Origin: Gemmatimonadaceae bacterium
Lineage (GTDB): Bacteria > Gemmatimonadota > Gemmatimonadetes > Gemmatimonadales > Gemmatimonadaceae
Direction of reading: 5' to 3'
Assembly (NCBI GenBank): GCA_011525845.1
Contig: WYBP01000003.1
Location: 124,001-188,000, forward strand
Length of the DNA: 64,000 nucleotides
Positions 11,864 through 18,962 of this stretch are shown in pieces; the stretch's first letter is position 1, and every line of letters begins with the position of its first letter. The notes under the pieces are model-generated. The model had not been told where the DNA came from. It saw only the letters and a list, made by a program, of their open reading frames with translations, and made no database searches. The position numbers and the translations under genes are program-made.

Positions 11864-12022
11864 CCGCGGCGTCCTCGCGGACGCCGAGCTGGGACGGGGG
11901 TGGGACGGGACGGGGGATTCCTGCACGGCGTGCAGGGGTCCCCCGCCTTGCATCCGGCGCGAAGAATGTGCACCCTCTCAGTCCCCCTATGCGCCCGCCA
12001 GGAGGCGGGAGGAGGGTGTCCC

Positions 12023-14101
12023 ATGCGGGAGTACAAGAGCGACGAGATCCGGAACATCGCGGTCGTGGGTCATGGAGCGAGCGGGAAGACCACTCTGGTC
12101 GACGCGCTCGCTTTCGTTTCCGGGTCATCGAAACGCCGTGGCACGGTGAAGGACGGCAACACGCTCACCGACACCTCCCCCGAGGAGGTCTCGCACGGCT
12201 ACTCGATCTCGCTCGGCTGTGCCCACGCCGAGTGGAAGGACGCCAAGATCAACCTGCTCGACACGCCCGGGTACGCGGATTTCGCGGGGGACGCGATCGC
12301 GGGGCTGGTGGCGGCGGACGGTGCGCTCGTCGCCGTGGGTGCGACCGGCGGCGTGGAGGTCGGCACGGAGCGGATGTTCCGCGAGGCGGTGAAGCGGAAG
12401 GACCCCGTGCTCTTCGTCGTGACGATGATGGACAAGGAGACCGCCGACTTCGACCGCGCGTACGCCGCGATCAAGGAGCGGCTCACCGCCAAGGTGGTGC
12501 CGGTGGAGATCCCGATCGGCGCCGGCGCGGAGTTCCGCGGGATCATCAACCTCCTCACGAGGAAGGCGCACCTCTTCAAGCCCGGCACCAAGTCCGGGGA
12601 GTTCACCGAGGCGCCGATCCCCAAGGAGGAGGAGGCGCGCTTCAAGCGCTACCATGCCGAGATGGTGGAGGCGATCGCCGCCACGGATGACGACCTGCTC
12701 GAGCGCTTCTTCGCCGAGGAGGAGCTCGCCACCGAGGACGAGGTGCGCGCGATGAAGAACGCGATGAAGGAGGCGGAGATCTTCCCGCTCCTCTGCTGCT
12801 CGGCGCAGCTCACCTACGGCATCCCGACGGTGCTCGACCTGCTGGTGCAGTTGATGCCGAACGCGTACGAGATGGAGGAGCTCCACGCCCTCAAGGGGGC
12901 GGAGGGGAACCGGACGGTGGAGATCCATGCGAAGGAGGACGCGCCCTTCGCGGCGCTCGTCTTCAAGACCACCGCCGAGCCGCACGTGGGGGAGGTGACC
13001 TTCTTCCGCACGATGAGCGGCACCGTGGCGAACGGGGCCGAGGTGTACAATGCGACGCGCGGTGCGCCGGAGAAGCTCTCGCACCTCGCGATCCCGCAGG
13101 GGAAGGAGCGGATCGAGGTCCCGCGGCTGTACCCGGGCGACATCGGGTGCGTGGCCAAGCTCCGCGGCACGCACACCAACGACACGCTGAGCACCGAGGC
13201 GCATCCGGTGCGCCTGCCGCAGATCCCCTTCCCGGACCCGCTGGTGAGCTTCGCGATCGAGGCCACCGCGCGCGCGGACGAGGAGAAGCTGCAGAACGGG
13301 CTGCACCGGCTGCACGACGAGGACCCGACGATCCAGACGCACTTCGAGCCCGAGACGCACGAGACGATCATCGAGGGGCTGGGCGAGCGACACCTGGACA
13401 TCGCGCTCGCGCGGCTCGAGCGGCAGTTCGGGGTGAAGGCCACGCTGCGGGCGCCGCGCGTGCCCTACCGCGAGACCCTGCTCGGCGCCGCCGAGGGGCA
13501 GGGGCGGCACAAGAAGCAGACCGGCGGGAAGGGGCAGTTCGGCGACTGCTGGATACGGATCAAGCCCGCGCCGCGCGGCACCGGCTACCAGTTCGTGGAC
13601 AAGATCTCGGGCGGCGTGATCCCGCGGCAGTACGTGCCCGCGGTGGACAAGGGCGTGCAGGAGGCCGCCGAGCGCGGCGTGCTCGCCGGGTTCCCGGTGG
13701 TGGACTTCACCGTCGAGTGCTTCGACGGCTCGTACCACTCGGTCGATTCCAATGAAGCGAGCTTCAAGATGGCGGGGATACTGGCGTTCAAGACGCTGGC
13801 GCCCAAGTGCAAGCCAGCGCTGCTGGAGCCGCTGATGACCGTGGAGGTCTTCACACCCGACGCGCACATGGGGGACGTGCTGGGCGATCTCTCAGGGCGT
13901 CGCGGGCAGATCCTGGGGACGGAGCCGTCGCCGGACGGGCTGGGGACGATCGTGAAGGCGACGGTGCCGATGGCGGAGCTGCACCTGTACGCGACCAAGC
14001 TGCAGTCGATGACGCACGGGTATGGGACGGTGAAGTACCGGTTCCAGGGGTTCGAGATGATGCCGGCGGAGGCGGCGGCGAAGGTGGCGCAGGCGAGCTA
14101 G
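12023..14101 (+). CDS. Elongation factor G-like GTPase with altered G4 motif
   Basis: A 692-residue paralogue of EF-G with all five domains, so probably a ribosome-associated translational GTPase. G1 is GHGASGKTT (16-24) and G3 is DTPGYADF (80-87). The nucleotide-specificity motif G4, normally NKMD, reads TMMD at 134-137, and the switch-I Thr of RGITI-type segments is Ser in HGYSI. Domain IV still has the GGKGQFGD loop start. A strong GGAGGAGGG site lies 6 bases before the ATG at 12023; the open frame upstream looks untranslated. It belongs to the EF-G-like group that usually coexists with a canonical fusA rather than replacing it. Exact role unknown. Confidence 0.88.
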   Translation: MREYKSDEIRNIAVVGHGASGKTTLVDALAFVSGSSKRRGTVKDGNTLTDTSPEEVSHGYSISLGCAHAEWKDAKINLLDTPGYADFAGDAIAGLVAADGALVAVGATGGVEVGTERMFREAVKRKDPVLFVVTMMDKETADFDRAYAAIKERLTAKVVPVEIPIGAGAEFRGIINLLTRKAHLFKPGTKSGEFTEAPIPKEEEARFKRYHAEMVEAIAATDDDLLERFFAEEELATEDEVRAMKNAMKEAEIFPLLCCSAQLTYGIPTVLDLLVQLMPNAYEMEELHALKGAEGNRTVEIHAKEDAPFAALVFKTTAEPHVGEVTFFRTMSGTVANGAEVYNATRGAPEKLSHLAIPQGKERIEVPRLYPGDIGCVAKLRGTHTNDTLSTEAHPVRLPQIPFPDPLVSFAIEATARADEEKLQNGLHRLHDEDPTIQTHFEPETHETIIEGLGERHLDIALARLERQFGVKATLRAPRVPYRETLLGAAEGQGRHKKQTGGKGQFGDCWIRIKPAPRGTGYQFVDKISGGVIPRQYVPAVDKGVQEAAERGVLAGFPVVDFTVECFDGSYHSVDSNEASFKMAGILAFKTLAPKCKPALLEPLMTVEVFTPDAHMGDVLGDLSGRRGQILGTEPSPDGLGTIVKATVPMAELHLYATKLQSMTHGYGTVKYRFQGFEMMPAEAAAKVAQAS

Positions 14102-14147: not shown

Positions 14148-17100
14148 TCAACGCCGCTCTTCTCCGGCGCGAGCGATGTCCGCCCCCCGGCTCGTGCCCG
14201 TGGTCACGCGCAGTCCCCGCATGATCAACTCCGCCCCCACGCTGTTCCCGGCGATCGACACGCGCACCGTGGGCGGCACCGCCGCCACCGCCTCCGTCCG
14301 CACGAGGAACTCGTCGTTGGCGAAGAGCGCGCAGCGCCCGTCGGTGGTGTACTCGATCCGGACGCGCTGCCACCCGCCATCGTAGAAACCCGGCGGGGGC
14401 GGCGACCCGGTGAAGGCCGCGGCCGCGTTCCGGGCCTCGACACCGAGGCGTCGCATGGCGCTGCCGCCTTCGCCCGGCGGGAAGTGGGCGCGGCAGACCA
14501 TCTCGTGCGGCGGCCCGGCGAGCGACGAGTGGTCCCACTGCTCGAGCGCCGGACTCGGTCCCCAGAGGATCAACGCGACGCCGAGCGTCTGCAGCTTGAA
14601 GCGGGTGACTGGGAGGCGAGCCTCGTACTCGACCGTGAGGCCGCGGGCCGTGGGAAGCAACGCCCGCGAATAGACCCCGCTGGGATAGACGCCGTCGCCG
14701 TTCGGAAGGAGCGCGGGACGGTCATCGTACTGAACGATCATCGGTCGCGGCCGGCCATACGGTATCCACTGCCGATCCAGTGGCCCCGTCCAGTCCTCCT
14801 GCAAGACCACGGTCCGCTCCGCGGGCGCCACGTCGATGACGACGGAATCCGTGCGCCATCCCCCCGCGCTCACGCGGAGCCGGGCCCGACCCGGCGCCAA
14901 CGCGCGCACGGTGCCGTCCGGATCGACGAGGGCCACACTCGAGTCGGATGATGAGTAGCGCATCGCATTGAGCGGGATGCGTAGACCGCTCGGCGTGAGC
15001 CCGACGGCCGTCAGCGCCGATGTGGTGCCCGGGCTCAGGAGCCTCGTCGGCATCTCCACCTTGATCACATCCAGATACTCCGAGCTCCCGGGTCCGGCGT
15101 CACGGATGTGTATCGCGCCGGATGTGATGAATCGCCCGTCGAGTTCCAGCGCACGCTGGGCGAGGACGTTCTGCAGCGTCGAGACCATGAGCGCTTGACG
15201 GCCGGACGCCTTGTCGCGACAGGAGCACCAGAGATAGCCGGTCGATCCGATGGGCGAGAGTGACCCCGTAACAGCGCCGATCTCCACGGTGACCCCCGTC
15301 CTGAGGTCGAGCCGGTGCACCGTGTACGCGCTCATGTCCTGGACCAGGAGCGCGCCGTCGTCGATCCAGCCCAGCACGAACGCCTCCTCCGGGATTCCGA
15401 GCCAGTCGCAGCGCTCGCGGGCGCCGTCGCTGTCGGCCACACAGAGCACGGGAGGGTCGGCCCGCTCCGTGACGAAGCTCCGCGTGAAGGCGATGCGCGT
15501 CCCGTCCGGACTCCATGCTGCTCCGCGTTCGTCGTCGTCGGTCGCCGTGACGCGCAGGGTCTCTCCCGAGGCCCGATGGTGGACGACCAGGTCGGCCTGA
15601 TGATAGGTCCGGTCGAATCGCCGGGTCGAGAACAGCACCAGGCGCGCATCAGGTGAGAGCACGGGGAAGAAGTCGTCCCCGAGCGCGGGTGAGAACCGGC
15701 GGATCGTGCCGTCCGGGGCGACCTCTACGACCTCCTGGCCTCCGGAGTCCTCGGGAAACAACATGGAGGTGACGGCGGTCGAACTCGGACCTGCCATCGT
15801 GGCGAACTGCTGGAGCTGCCCCGTGAAGATGAGGCTCTCCCGCGACGAAGCGCGGACCGCATGGAGCGGGGACCCCGTCCGCCATCCCTCCGGGGGTGGG
15901 AGGACGACCTTCGCACGGGACCCACTGGACTCCTCAGCCACGTAGAGGATCGTGGTGCCGTCGACATCCGCCCCGACCAATGCAAGTCCGGCTGCGCCAC
16001 CTGAGATCACCACCAACCCAGCCGCCGCTGCGATGAGGCGCCGCCAGGGATGCAGGCGAAGCCGCCGGGGCGTCGTCCGGAGGACCTGCTGCCGTCGATT
16101 GTCGCCGAGCGTCGGCGGGAGGACGTCGGCCGCGATCCGCGGCACGGGACGCGGGTCTCCGCCCTCCCGGGCCGCGCGAAGCGCGCTGACCCAGACCTGC
16201 GCGAGGCGGGGGTCGTCCGCCGCACGCATCGCGTGGTGCGCGGAGAGGGCGAAGTCGGGGAGGGTCCGCCCCCGCGCGAGCAGCAGGTCGGACGCCCACG
16301 CGTGCGCTCGCAGACGGTCGCCGGGGGCCGTGAGATCCAGCGCGGCGGCGGCGATCTCGTCATGCCAGACGCCGACACGACCCTCGACGCGCGCGACGAA
16401 GCCGCGGCGCTCCAGTTCCGGCAGGACCGCGGCCCAGTCCGGGACCTGCGCATCCGGCTGGAGGTCGTGGTCCGTGGCGGGCCGGCCGAGCGTCGCGAGC
16501 CGCGCGAGCGCCGCACGCGCCGCCGCATCGAGCGACTCGACCCGCGCGTGCAGCGCGCTCCCGGTGGGCATCGCCTCCTCCAGCGCCTCCGGCGAGGCGG
16601 CGTGCCACACGCCGTCCCGCCGTGCGAGCGCGCCGTGCTCGACCAGGCGCTGCAGCGTCTCGATGAGGTAGAGCGGGATGCCGTGCGTCACCTGGTGCAG
16701 TCGCGGGACGAACGATCGCGCCCACGCCTCGGTCGGAAGGCCGGCGAGCCGGCTCACGAACTCGCCGACGCCGGCGACATCGAGCGGCGCGAGGGGGAGC
16801 TCGTCCACGGTGCCGAACTGGAGCCGGAGCTCGTCGGGAACGCGCGACGCGACCACGAGCAGGGCACGCGAGCGCTCCACGCGCGCGCGAAGGGATGCGA
16901 CGAGCCGGATGGACTCCGTGTCCGCCCAGTGCCCATCGTCCACGAGCATGACGAGCGGGTGCGACTCGGTCACCACCGTGACGAGCTCCCCCAGTGCGGC
17001 GGCGCGGCGGCGCACGGCATCCTCGCCGGTGGCGAGGTCGGGAGCAGCGCCGGGGTAGGTGCTGGCGAGGACTGGCGAGAGTGCGACGAGCACCGCCGCA

Positions 17101-18146
17101 CTCCCGGGCGAGACCGACGCCGCGCCGGGGAGCTCGGCGAGCGCGGACGCGAGCGCCGCTGCGAGCCCCGCCTGGATCGAGCGCTCGCCGGGGTGCGCAC
17201 GCACGGCTATCACCCGCCCGCGCGCGCCGGTGACCCGCGCGCCGAAGTCGGCGAGGATCCGGCTCTTGCCGAGGCCTGCGGCGCCGCTGAGGAGGATCGC
17301 CCGCCCCTGTCCACGGCGTGCCCCCTCCCACGCGTCCACCAGCGTGCGGAACTCCGACTCGCGCCCGATCAGGTCGGGCACCAGCGTCTCCTCCGAGACG
17401 GGAGCGTCCTCCGCTCCCGAGCCGTTGGACGAGAGCTTCTTCGCCGAGCGGATGAGTGCCCGCGACGTCGCATCCGCCTCGATCTCACCGCGCGCCAACT
17501 GCTCCTCGAGCTCGGCGACCAGGGCGAGGGCGCCGAGCGCGTCGCGCGCCGCGATCAGGGACTCGAGGAGAAGGTTGCTGGTCGCGGGATCCTCCGGAGC
17601 GACCTCGCGCGCGCGCCGCGCGAGCTCGATCGCCTCGCGCGCACGCCCCGACGAGAGGAGCGTCCGCACCGCCTCCTCGACGCACAGCACGTACGTCGCG
17701 CGCAGGCGCCGTCGCTCGAGATCCCCCCACTCCTCGAACGCCTCGGCGCCGGGTGCCGCGAAGTCGGGGATGAGATCCCCCTTGTACGCGGCGACGGCCT
17801 CGGCGAATCGGCGCTGCTGTGCCGCCTCGAGGAACTCATCCACGTCGCTCCGCGCTTCGGGCACGAGGCCGACGCCGTCGTCGTCGGCGAGCAGGATCTC
17901 GCCCAGCCGCTTCTTCAGGTACCAGAGGGTCTGGCGGAGGTTCTGGCGCGCCGCGTCAGTGCTGCCATCAGACCAGAGGAGGGTCGCGAGGCGTTCCCGG
18001 GAAGCGCGGCGTCCGGGTGTGAGCGCCAGGTAGGCGAGGAGCGCGACAGGTTTCCCCTTCGCAAGATGCCGCTCGCCCTCCTCGCCGGCGCTGCGCGCCT
18101 CGAGCCCACCGAGCAGGACCAACGAGAGCCGCATCTGTGACGCCAT
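14148..18146 (-). CDS. Membrane-spanning SARP/ATPase regulator fused to extracytoplasmic propeller
   Basis: A 1332-residue single-chain signalling protein. Order: winged-helix DNA-binding domain (about 5-95), BTAD helical domain (about 100-240), STAND/AAA-type ATPase with Walker A GAAGLGKS (288-295) and Walker B VMLVDDGHWAD (399-409), helical region to 690, a transmembrane segment (about 703-724), a TolB/PD40-like beta-propeller (about 730-1000 with SPDARLVLFS and SPDGTRIAFTR blades), a BIG2-like domain (about 1040-1106) and a C-terminal LamG-like beta-sandwich (about 1115-1320). The cytoplasmic half resembles AfsR/SARP activators. The outside half would sense an envelope ligand. Convergent with the EF-G paralogue and immediately downstream of thyX on the same strand. 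Confidence 0.88.
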   Translation of the reverse strand: MASQMRLSLVLLGGLEARSAGEEGERHLAKGKPVALLAYLALTPGRRASRERLATLLWSDGSTDAARQNLRQTLWYLKKRLGEILLADDDGVGLVPEARSDVDEFLEAAQQRRFAEAVAAYKGDLIPDFAAPGAEAFEEWGDLERRRLRATYVLCVEEAVRTLLSSGRAREAIELARRAREVAPEDPATSNLLLESLIAARDALGALALVAELEEQLARGEIEADATSRALIRSAKKLSSNGSGAEDAPVSEETLVPDLIGRESEFRTLVDAWEGARRGQGRAILLSGAAGLGKSRILADFGARVTGARGRVIAVRAHPGERSIQAGLAAALASALAELPGAASVSPGSAAVLVALSPVLASTYPGAAPDLATGEDAVRRRAAALGELVTVVTESHPLVMLVDDGHWADTESIRLVASLRARVERSRALLVVASRVPDELRLQFGTVDELPLAPLDVAGVGEFVSRLAGLPTEAWARSFVPRLHQVTHGIPLYLIETLQRLVEHGALARRDGVWHAASPEALEEAMPTGSALHARVESLDAAARAALARLATLGRPATDHDLQPDAQVPDWAAVLPELERRGFVARVEGRVGVWHDEIAAAALDLTAPGDRLRAHAWASDLLLARGRTLPDFALSAHHAMRAADDPRLAQVWVSALRAAREGGDPRPVPRIAADVLPPTLGDNRRQQVLRTTPRRLRLHPWRRLIAAAAGLVVISGGAAGLALVGADVDGTTILYVAEESSGSRAKVVLPPPEGWRTGSPLHAVRASSRESLIFTGQLQQFATMAGPSSTAVTSMLFPEDSGGQEVVEVAPDGTIRRFSPALGDDFFPVLSPDARLVLFSTRRFDRTYHQADLVVHHRASGETLRVTATDDDERGAAWSPDGTRIAFTRSFVTERADPPVLCVADSDGARERCDWLGIPEEAFVLGWIDDGALLVQDMSAYTVHRLDLRTGVTVEIGAVTGSLSPIGSTGYLWCSCRDKASGRQALMVSTLQNVLAQRALELDGRFITSGAIHIRDAGPGSSEYLDVIKVEMPTRLLSPGTTSALTAVGLTPSGLRIPLNAMRYSSSDSSVALVDPDGTVRALAPGRARLRVSAGGWRTDSVVIDVAPAERTVVLQEDWTGPLDRQWIPYGRPRPMIVQYDDRPALLPNGDGVYPSGVYSRALLPTARGLTVEYEARLPVTRFKLQTLGVALILWGPSPALEQWDHSSLAGPPHEMVCRAHFPPGEGGSAMRRLGVEARNAAAAFTGSPPPPGFYDGGWQRVRIEYTTDGRCALFANDEFLVRTEAVAAVPPTVRVSIAGNSVGAELIMRGLRVTTGTSRGADIARAGEERR

Positions 18147-18206
18147 GGCCTCGAAATGTGCCCCGGGCGTCAGAGGTCCGTCAGACCCGCAGCGACTACC
18201 GGCGGA

Positions 18207-18962
18207 TCACACCTTGTGGTAGCTGATCCGCCCCGCCTCCACGCGGTCCGCGGCCATGTAGACCTCGAAGTCCGAGAAGAAGGCGGGCGCCTCCTTCTGC
18301 AGCGTGCGGAGCGCGACGATCGCCAGGCGCCGGATCTCGAACTCCGCGCCCTCGCTGGAGCGGAGCTCGAGCATCGTCCGCCAGGCGCGCGCGTTGGCGG
18401 TGACGACGATCTTCGTCTCGGTCGAGTTGGGGAGCACCCCGCGCGCGGCCTCGCGCGCCATCTTCCGGCGGTGGACCTTGTCGTCCACCCACTTGTAGCG
18501 CTCCATCAGCTTCTCGACGAGCGCGATGTAGGTGGCCTGCGCGGACTCGATCTGCGCCTTCCATGCCGCGGTGAGCGCGTCGTCGCCGATGATCGCCGGC
18601 GGCACCACGAACGCGGCGTCGGACTCGTCGACGTACCGCTGGCTGAGCTGGCTGTACGCGAAGCCGGCCCGGTGCCGCACCAGCTCGTGCGTGAGGGACC
18701 GGCTCACCCCCTCGAAGAGGAGGGAGTAGTTCGCGTGCTCGAGCACCGAACCATGCCCCTGCTTCTTGATGTTCTCCAGGTAGTCCCGCGTGGTGCGGCT
18801 CGCGGGGTTCTTCTGGCTCATGTAGCAGAGCCGCCCGGCGAACTCGGCGAGCTTCTCACCACCGGTGCTCTCGCCCATCCACTGCACGGGGAGGTGTCCG
18901 GGCTCCGCGAAGTCGGGGCGGGAGAGGACGGTGACCTTGGGTTCGGTGTAGAACTGGGGCAT
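18207..18962 (-). CDS. thyX: Flavin-dependent thymidylate synthase ThyX
   Basis: A 251-residue FAD enzyme that makes dTMP from dUMP with methylenetetrahydrofolate and NADPH. The signature is RHRAGFAYSQLSQRY; the gap between RHR and the catalytic-loop Ser is 8 residues where the usual pattern is 7. A KKQGHGSVLEHANYS segment (about 67) supplies a further conserved FAD/dUMP contact. No thyA or dfrA is in the window. It is the last gene of a long minus-strand run, with the repeat element at 18966-19086 immediately upstream, so it may also be separately expressed. The ATG lacks a Shine-Dalgarno. Confidence 0.95.
   Translation of the reverse strand: MPQFYTEPKVTVLSRPDFAEPGHLPVQWMGESTGGEKLAEFAGRLCYMSQKNPASRTTRDYLENIKKQGHGSVLEHANYSLLFEGVSRSLTHELVRHRAGFAYSQLSQRYVDESDAAFVVPPAIIGDDALTAAWKAQIESAQATYIALVEKLMERYKWVDDKVHRRKMAREAARGVLPNSTETKIVVTANARAWRTMLELRSSEGAEFEIRRLAIVALRTLQKEAPAFFSDFEVYMAADRVEAGRISYHKV

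Follow-up and report, generated by a model that had tools for sequence, protein, structure and literature searches.

Can a single polypeptide join a SARP activator, an ATPase and an extracytoplasmic sensor, as the initial annotation of this locus proposed, and, if so, what does it regulate? The gene in question lies in the window (the whole stretch of 64,000 nucleotides that was analysed), which comes from a soil-type bacterium. Its open reading frame is intact, running from an ATG at 18146 with no internal stop, and the proposed domain order was confirmed and recurs in relatives. With moderate confidence, drawn from sequence and structural models, we regard the predicted product as a membrane-tethered, self-regulating one-component SARP-STAND receptor and activator with a built-in STAND switch. 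The gene and its neighbours are as follows:

14148–18146, minus strand: whole gene, SARP-STAND-TM-propeller-BIG2-lectin-like regulator of 1332 aa (intact ORF, co-linear relatives)
11900–14101, plus strand: EF-G paralogue, convergent, downstream of the regulator gene (conserved synteny)
18207–18962, minus strand: thyX, same-strand gene upstream of the regulator (conserved synteny; probably without functional link)

Querying genome contigs with the single protein gave no matches, but a profile made from a four-row alignment detected relatives. A search for the same domain order across Gemmatimonadota, which had been suggested as a check, found it in dozens of proteins. Co-linear full-length relatives with 25–47% identity occur in many genomes, so the domain order is not a product of chance. 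The family is likely restricted to Gemmatimonadota and, as far as sequences can tell, these relatives across the phylum are a real, unstudied type of regulator; in the open-access literature we found no relevant paper on membrane-bound SARPs or on SARPs in Gemmatimonadota. The motif, cysteine and hydropathy counts given below refer to 24 aligned family members. The N-terminal half of the protein comprises:

17427–18140, minus strand: SARP domain, residues 3–240, an OmpR-type winged helix (~3–100) followed by a BTAD (~101–240) (fold match to AfsR/EmbR; Pfam)
16323–17384, minus strand: STAND nucleotide-binding oligomerisation domain, residues ~255–608 (AAA_16, fold match, motifs in 24/24)
17262–17285, minus strand: Walker A, GAAGLGKS, residues 288–295 (sequence, alignment)
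16935–16949, minus strand: Walker B, MLVDD, residues 400–404 (sequence, alignment)
16050–16322, minus strand: helical arm-like linker, residues 609–699, without a TPR array (model)

Pfam matches to the DNA-binding part of the query protein are marginal and below cut-off (Trans_reg_C 19.4 bits, BTAD 18.8 bits), although BTAD exceeds its cut-off in a six-frame search (24.8 bits) and is matched in 11 of the 15 aligned family members searched. The predicted fold of residues 3–240 matches AfsR (Z 15.7–16.1 over 225–226 aligned residues, 21–22% identity) and EmbR (Z 15.6), and a profile search also pairs this domain with both proteins; the winged helix and BTAD read from the letters alone are thus borne out. 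Comparison with the DNA-contact residues of AfsR (PMC10936776) reveals that R71, equivalent to the phosphate-contacting R87, is kept in 24/24 members, while W58 (AfsR W74) and a K/R at position 78 (AfsR R94) are each found in 23/24. The base-contacting T88 and R92 are not kept, being Q72 and Y76 in the query, so its specificity must differ from that of AfsR. With its N-terminal OmpR winged helix and BTAD, as judged from sequence and model, the protein is a predicted member of the SARP family (AfsR/DnrI/EmbR type).

The ATPase is more readily recognised, with a Pfam AAA_16 match of E 4e-21 and GAAGLGKS exactly where a Walker A had been called. The modelled fold of residues 255–700 resembles PH0952 (Z 24.5) and MalT (Z 22.1) over ~360 residues. 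K294 of Walker A, the second Walker B aspartate D404, R435 after the following strand, the GxP motif (G489-x-P491) and the MHD-like H595-D596 of the winged-helix HD motif are present in 24/24 members, and the first Walker B aspartate (D403) in 23/24. This apparent NOD/STAND ATPase is placed after the SARP domain as in the large SARPs of the AfsR subtype. The cytoplasmic C-terminal TPR sensor of that subtype is absent, and a membrane helix with propeller, BIG2 and lectin-like domains stands there instead:

15975–16040, minus strand: single transmembrane helix, residues 703–724 (hydropathy, family alignment, model)
15114–15959, minus strand: TolB/PD40-type beta-propeller, residues ~730–1011, with conserved C902/C913 (PD40, TolB fold match, cysteines)
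14829–15071, minus strand: BIG2 (Ig-like) domain, residues ~1026–1106 (Big_2 Pfam, model)
14190–14822, minus strand: concanavalin/L-type-lectin-like domain, residues ~1109–1319, with conserved C1218/C1272 (ERGIC-53/Emp46 fold match, cysteines)

In view of its composition, the hydrophobic segment deserves scrutiny: it is rich in alanine and glycine and only moderately hydrophobic (KD 2.05 in the query), as might be expected if it were merely a buried helix in a soluble protein with every domain cytoplasmic. We consider this very improbable. The segment is modelled as one helix (residues 700–726), and both its position and its hydropathy are conserved in the 24 members, whose mean peaks at 2.06 at residue 707 (next peak 1.3); an equivalent peak is absent from the soluble relatives. 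Eight K/R flank the query helix on its N side and none on its C side, and an N-side excess of positive residues is seen in most relatives. The C half contains exactly four or six cysteines in 24/24 members, four of them at conserved positions, whereas the N half has anywhere from 0 to 11 per member, with no column above half. The sole family-wide hydrophobic peak, the N-side positives and the conserved C-half cysteines together support an N-in/C-out topology, with the winged helix inside, one membrane helix and a C-terminal sensor outside. The initial annotation had staked its reading on the helix being inserted and on the C-terminal domains not being cytoplasmic in all homologues; the evidence examined speaks against neither.

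The proposed outer half has Pfam matches above cut-off to PD40 (E 7e-7) and Big_2 (E 2.5e-5), and the propeller model matches the fold of TolB. The last domain has no Pfam match but its fold resembles the L-type lectins, with Z reaching 17.9 for ERGIC-53. Since L-type lectins and LamG belong to the same concanavalin-like superfamily, the LamG-like sandwich originally described can be kept along with the propeller and the BIG2-like domain. Neither the lectin-like domain nor the propeller revealed a ligand site; the two modelled folds would be compatible with binding of a glycan or lipoprotein outside.

Is this outer half the true input? It could instead be a mere anchor or envelope-binding module, the real signal being cytoplasmic, either the ATP/ADP level or phosphorylation of the SARP-STAND half by a kinase. 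Several Ser/Thr kinases are encoded in the source genome, and in AfsR the controlling event is the binding of ATP by the NOD. In vitro this releases the protein from its inhibited state, and phosphorylation makes little difference to activation (PMC10936776), data that make the original statement that AfsR types need phosphorylation too strong. We nevertheless hold a purely cytoplasmic input to be unlikely, because dozens of proteins retain the sensor half in the same domain order and the two halves co-evolve (Mantel r 0.65–0.83, 0/2000 permutations), with a mean identity of 25% for the sensor half versus 38% for the DNA-binding half. Faster sensor divergence, co-evolution and fixed order are what is expected of an input module. 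The SARP-TM-sensor order is also retained in relatives that have no ATPase (L146, L148, L149).

The surroundings of the gene are less informative about its targets. The EF-G paralogue had been taken for a divergent partner, but it is convergent, and the upstream gene is thyX, 60 bp away on the same strand. Family genes occupy two conserved loci (thyX/EF-G and ParA/folE/QueD-type) whose neighbours are all housekeeping genes; we therefore rejected the deduction of a target operon from the neighbours and conclude that there is no dedicated one. The earlier view that target genes are not evident thus holds for the neighbourhood, but not for the regulator's own promoter, which carries a SARP-type operator:

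18168–18185, minus strand: predicted SARP-type operator TCTGACG-GACC-TCTGACG, a heptamer pair with an 11-bp period, 21 bp upstream of the ATG
18153–18158, minus strand: candidate -10, CATTTC, a weak match ~9 bp past the 3' repeat

The strict operator, TCTGACG-N4-TCTGACG, occurs once in the 3.58-Mb genome, and allowing one mismatch brings up no second copy. Pairs of TGACG at exactly 11-bp spacing lie upstream of 16/49 family genes (other spacings ≤4) and in 7/460 control upstream regions (Fisher p 7e-13); this control is conservative, since two of its seven matches belong to a family member that is broken into fragments. With longer upstream regions the count becomes 19/49, against a shuffle expectation of 0.06 per set, though three of the 19 apparent operators were excluded for lying inside coding sequence (LTLR motif). 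The exact operator is thus confined to a third of the family genes, and the remainder may use diverged boxes or none. A mechanical promoter scan at the regulator gene did not find a sigma-70 consensus; an A at +26 (18157 in the query), conserved in 12/16 family sites, is consistent with a -10 at about the distance usual for SARPs. The inverted CGTCAGA that follows the repeats in some orthologues was considered as a terminator and dismissed, as the T run is absent. A direct-repeat operator with an 11-bp period near the -10 is what is found in the SARP family, and binding to it is predicted.

Which SARP would bind there is a separate matter. The TGACG operator could be read by a paralogue, giving control by a SARP network and no autoregulation; many genomes hold several SARP paralogues, and similar boxes precede other SARP-type genes (L250, L259, L266, L293, L318). 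At least one of these (L250), a further SARP-ATPase gene with a looser box, is in the source genome, where the loose pattern TGACG-N6-TGACG has four sites: two inside genes, one at the regulator gene and one before L250. To this reading we give a modest chance, somewhat better than to a cytoplasmic input. Against it, only one copy of the strict heptamer box occurs in the source genome, at the regulator gene itself, and box enrichment at family promoters spans genera. In other genomes boxes also precede three glycerate-kinase-type genes (DUF4147/MOFRL; one identified by Pfam), a fourth similar gene emerging from a further search, as well as single polysaccharide genes, which were too few for the exopolysaccharide regulon that we had considered. 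The loose pattern is only modestly above its control in several genomes.

How might such a receptor operate? We favour a scheme in which residues 1–700 (SARP and STAND) would be cytoplasmic, helix 703–724 would anchor the chain N-in/C-out, and the TolB-type propeller, BIG2 spacer and lectin-like domain would lie outside the cytoplasm. Without ligand, the STAND core would be ADP-bound and closed; binding of an outer ligand or envelope state would shift the helix and the arm-like segment 609–699, whereupon the core would swap ADP for ATP and multimerise at the membrane. Paired SARP domains would then bind the TCTGACG repeats beside sigma region 4, activating the regulator's own promoter, which would create positive feedback, and probably a small number of further promoters. 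The tethered one-component regulator of the initial annotation, with a cytoplasmic SARP-ATPase and an extracytoplasmic sensor, thus survives by virtue of helix conservation and cysteines, its EF-G partner does not, and the DNA-binding half would presumably be switched by ATP turnover. The full version, a transmembrane, NLR-like STAND factor whose outer lectin and propeller gate ADP-ATP opening and multimerisation through one helix, bringing paired SARP domains to the gene's promoter at the membrane in a self-amplifying manner, is offered tentatively, as a possibility. Alternatively, an outside signal might trigger cleavage near the helix, freeing the SARP-STAND half to diffuse to its operators. 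Single-pass anchors can be cut, and that half resembles complete soluble regulators (AfsR and Chloroflexota/Actinomycetota relatives), yet neither a cleavage site nor a dedicated protease was seen, the neighbours being housekeeping genes, and ToxR-type regulators are known to act from the membrane. We judge such release improbable, slightly more so than a cytoplasmic input.

Most known STAND switches and SARP activators are soluble; here, the two are predicted to be combined with a membrane helix and an external sensor, in a family conserved among Gemmatimonadota. If the tethered-receptor reading is true, a bacterium can let an outside signal govern STAND-dependent transcription with no kinase or partner protein. 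Because the operator sits at the gene's own promoter, the mechanism is directly testable, and relatives that share the SARP-TM-sensor order but differ in having an ATPase or not allow a natural test of what the STAND switch contributes.

With respect to known systems, AfsR, the large SARP of Streptomyces coelicolor, likewise begins with a SARP domain (fold Z 16 across 225 residues) and continues into a STAND/NOD ATPase; the DNA-backbone contacts are conserved, and its operator also consists of direct repeats with an 11-bp period near the -10. Its C-terminal end, however, is an arm and TPR sensor, and it is not known to reside in the membrane; in the query the TPR gives way to a membrane helix with three domains of extracytoplasmic type, and the operator sequence is different. 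PimR and other SARP-LAL regulators likewise combine a SARP with a large ATP-binding half, and PimR-type operators have heptamers with 4-nt spacers, as in the query box (PMC5930380). The PimR heptamer is CGGCAAG rather than TCTGACG, and neither a membrane helix nor an outer sensor is known in these regulators. MalT, a sugar-responsive STAND activator, and PH0952 share the STAND core fold (Z 22–24 over ~360 residues), but in MalT a LuxR HTH forms the C-terminus and the sensor is soluble, while the query has its DNA-binding domain at the N-terminus and its sensor past the membrane helix. CadC and ToxR place an OmpR-type winged helix in the cytoplasm and, past one membrane helix, a C-terminal periplasmic sensor, which in CadC contains a disulfide. 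CadC lacks BTAD and ATPase, its winged helix is joined directly to the membrane helix and its sensor is unrelated; the query would work like CadC/ToxR yet, with a predicted BTAD and STAND intervening, belongs outside that group. Finally, the Ser/Thr kinase-TM-PD40 receptors, present in the source genome (L239, L247), also carry a PD40 propeller behind one membrane helix, but their output is a kinase and not a DNA-binding SARP-STAND half.

The open reading frame at 14148-18146 on the minus strand, annotated initially as encoding one protein, is indeed intact and specifies 1332 residues from an ATG start. Pfam places AAA_16 at residues 259-432 (4e-21), PD40 at 865-889 and Big_2 at 1040-1090; Trans_reg_C (31-83) and BTAD (110-231) are both sub-threshold in the protein search, and BTAD passes the cut-off in a six-frame search and is matched by 11 of 15 aligned family members. 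The structure prediction called for by the initial annotation was run with AlphaFold2 in two parts (residues 1-730, mean pLDDT 86.4; residues 722-1332, mean pLDDT 74.0), using as input only sequences of the window and of related genomes' contigs, and recovered SARP/EmbR-type, STAND, TolB-like and L-type-lectin-like folds. In fold comparisons, modelled residues 3-240 resemble AfsR (8k60, Z 16.1; 8hvr, Z 15.7) and EmbR (Z 15.6), and for residues ~255-700 the matches are PH0952, a STAND protein (Z 24.5, 358 aligned), and MalT (Z 22.1, 366 aligned). In the second model, residues 9-290 of its own numbering resemble TolB (Z up to 18.6) and residues 388-598 match L-type lectins, ERGIC-53 and Emp46 among them (Z up to 17.9), with the BIG2 domain between the two regions; the modelled folds suggest that this outer part may bind sugar.

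The membrane helix proposed near 703-724 remains a prediction, one that the family supports: mean hydropathy over 24 members has a single peak (2.06 at residue 707; second-highest 1.30), absent from soluble SARP-ATPase relatives of other phyla, and the model has a single helix at residues 700-726. The 20 residues preceding it hold eight K/R and the 20 beyond it none. In all 24 members the C-terminal half has exactly 4 or 6 cysteines, of which C902/C913 and C1218/C1272 are conserved in 19-22 and a CxC at 974/976 is optional; the N half has 0-11, and no cysteine column there exceeds half of the members. This pattern fits a predicted N-in/C-out topology with disulfides outside.

The Walker A lysine, second Walker B aspartate, R435, GxP (489-491) and HD (595-596) are each present in 24/24 members. 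Of the AfsR residues that contact DNA (PMC10936776), the phosphate contacts R87 and R94 align with R71 (24/24) and K78 (R/K in 23/24); the base contacts T88 and R92 are replaced by Q72 and Y76, so an operator different from that of AfsR is expected. A candidate lies just ahead of the gene:

18185-18168, minus strand: candidate SARP-type operator TCTGACG-GACC-TCTGACG, 21 bp ahead of the ATG, inside the 60-bp gap between thyX and the gene

Its heptamers, set 4 nt apart, conform to the rule described for SARP operators (PMC5930380). Because the pattern came to light at this gene and its orthologues before the wider family was tested, the discovery set is part of the family counts. With coding parts trimmed off, TGACG pairs occur at exactly 11 bp in 16/49 upstream regions (at most 4 at any other spacing from 5 to 44), against 7/460 for neighbouring genes as controls (Fisher p 7e-13); in the longer regions 19/49 match, versus 0.06 per shuffled set. 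A de novo count also ranks TGACG first among 5-mers repeated at an 11-bp distance. An A at +26 in 12 of the 16 sites (p 6e-7 for the single position, ~4e-5 corrected for position choice) fits a candidate -10 near the SARP distance. Allowing up to one mismatch, the heptamer pair occurs once in the 3.58-Mb genome, ahead of this gene; the 64-kb window alone, with one loose match versus 0.35 expected, is uninformative on uniqueness. A looser box in the same genome, TGACGGGGCGGTGACG (L250, 1501-1564), lies 62 bp ahead of a second SARP-ATPase gene, making a SARP network possible. Elsewhere, TGACG 11-bp boxes precede glycerate-kinase-type (DUF4147/MOFRL) genes (L292, typed by Pfam; L284, L288 and L320, by similar N-termini) and, in two other genomes, an epimerase gene of polysaccharide biosynthesis and a gene for a UDP-sugar dehydrogenase (L253, L291).

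The proposed search for the domain order across Gemmatimonadota yielded full-length co-linear relatives (25-47% identity; 99 related genomes), and across 346 Gemmatimonadota genomes most copies of the sensor module belong to frames roughly 1230-1460 aa long. In a profile scan of genome contigs, full-length members appeared solely in records labelled Gemmatimonadota, and the N-terminal part on three short contigs (L040, L042, L044) whose labels read Chloroflexi or Kuenenia; these carry close N-terminal relatives and are probably misbinned Gemmatimonadota. Between members, the pairwise distances measured on the SARP, STAND and sensor parts are correlated (Mantel r 0.65-0.83; 0/2000 permutations as high), which argues for evolution of the chain mainly as a single unit, its sensor diverging fastest. 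Two members stand in tandem with a 4-base overlap in L195 (1203-4865, 4862-8587).

The EF-G gene, initially taken for a divergent partner, is in fact downstream and convergent; thyX lies upstream on the same strand. Five genomes from another genus of Gemmatimonadaceae show the same order, thyX - regulator - EF-G, which argues that the gene has long been part of the chromosome; one relative in the thyX/EF-G locus (L143 and L181) appears frameshifted into two ORFs. A second set of relatives lies between ParA-type and folE/QueD-type genes (named by eye from sequence), and neither neighbourhood points to a dedicated target. One subgroup (L150, 1683-5831; L151, 1530-5639) is surrounded by genes whose products have prepilin-type N-termini (GFTLPEVLV...), and a functional tie to type IV pili or pseudopilins is possible on this context.

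Starting from the domains, their conservation, the intact motifs and the SARP-type operator sequence, we infer that a ligand would act outside the cytoplasm, its signal passing through the membrane helix and an arm-like segment; the STAND core would open, as in MalT (PMC4381067), and the SARP domains would pair on the operator, so that the gene may activate itself. Related arrangements include SARP, membrane helix and propeller/lectin-like sensor without the ATPase, in CadC-like order (L146, L148, L149), SARP-STAND-TM with a short C end lacking domain assignment (L022-L033) and, in the same genome, SARP-TM-TPR (L246) and kinase-TM-PD40 (L239, L247). In the limited literature searched, no single chain joining a SARP and a STAND ATPase to a membrane helix and three outer domains was found; each module is already known. 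For the cytoplasmic half there is a direct precedent in AfsR, whose SARP is inhibited by its NOD and TPR until ATP binding lifts the inhibition (PMC10936776).
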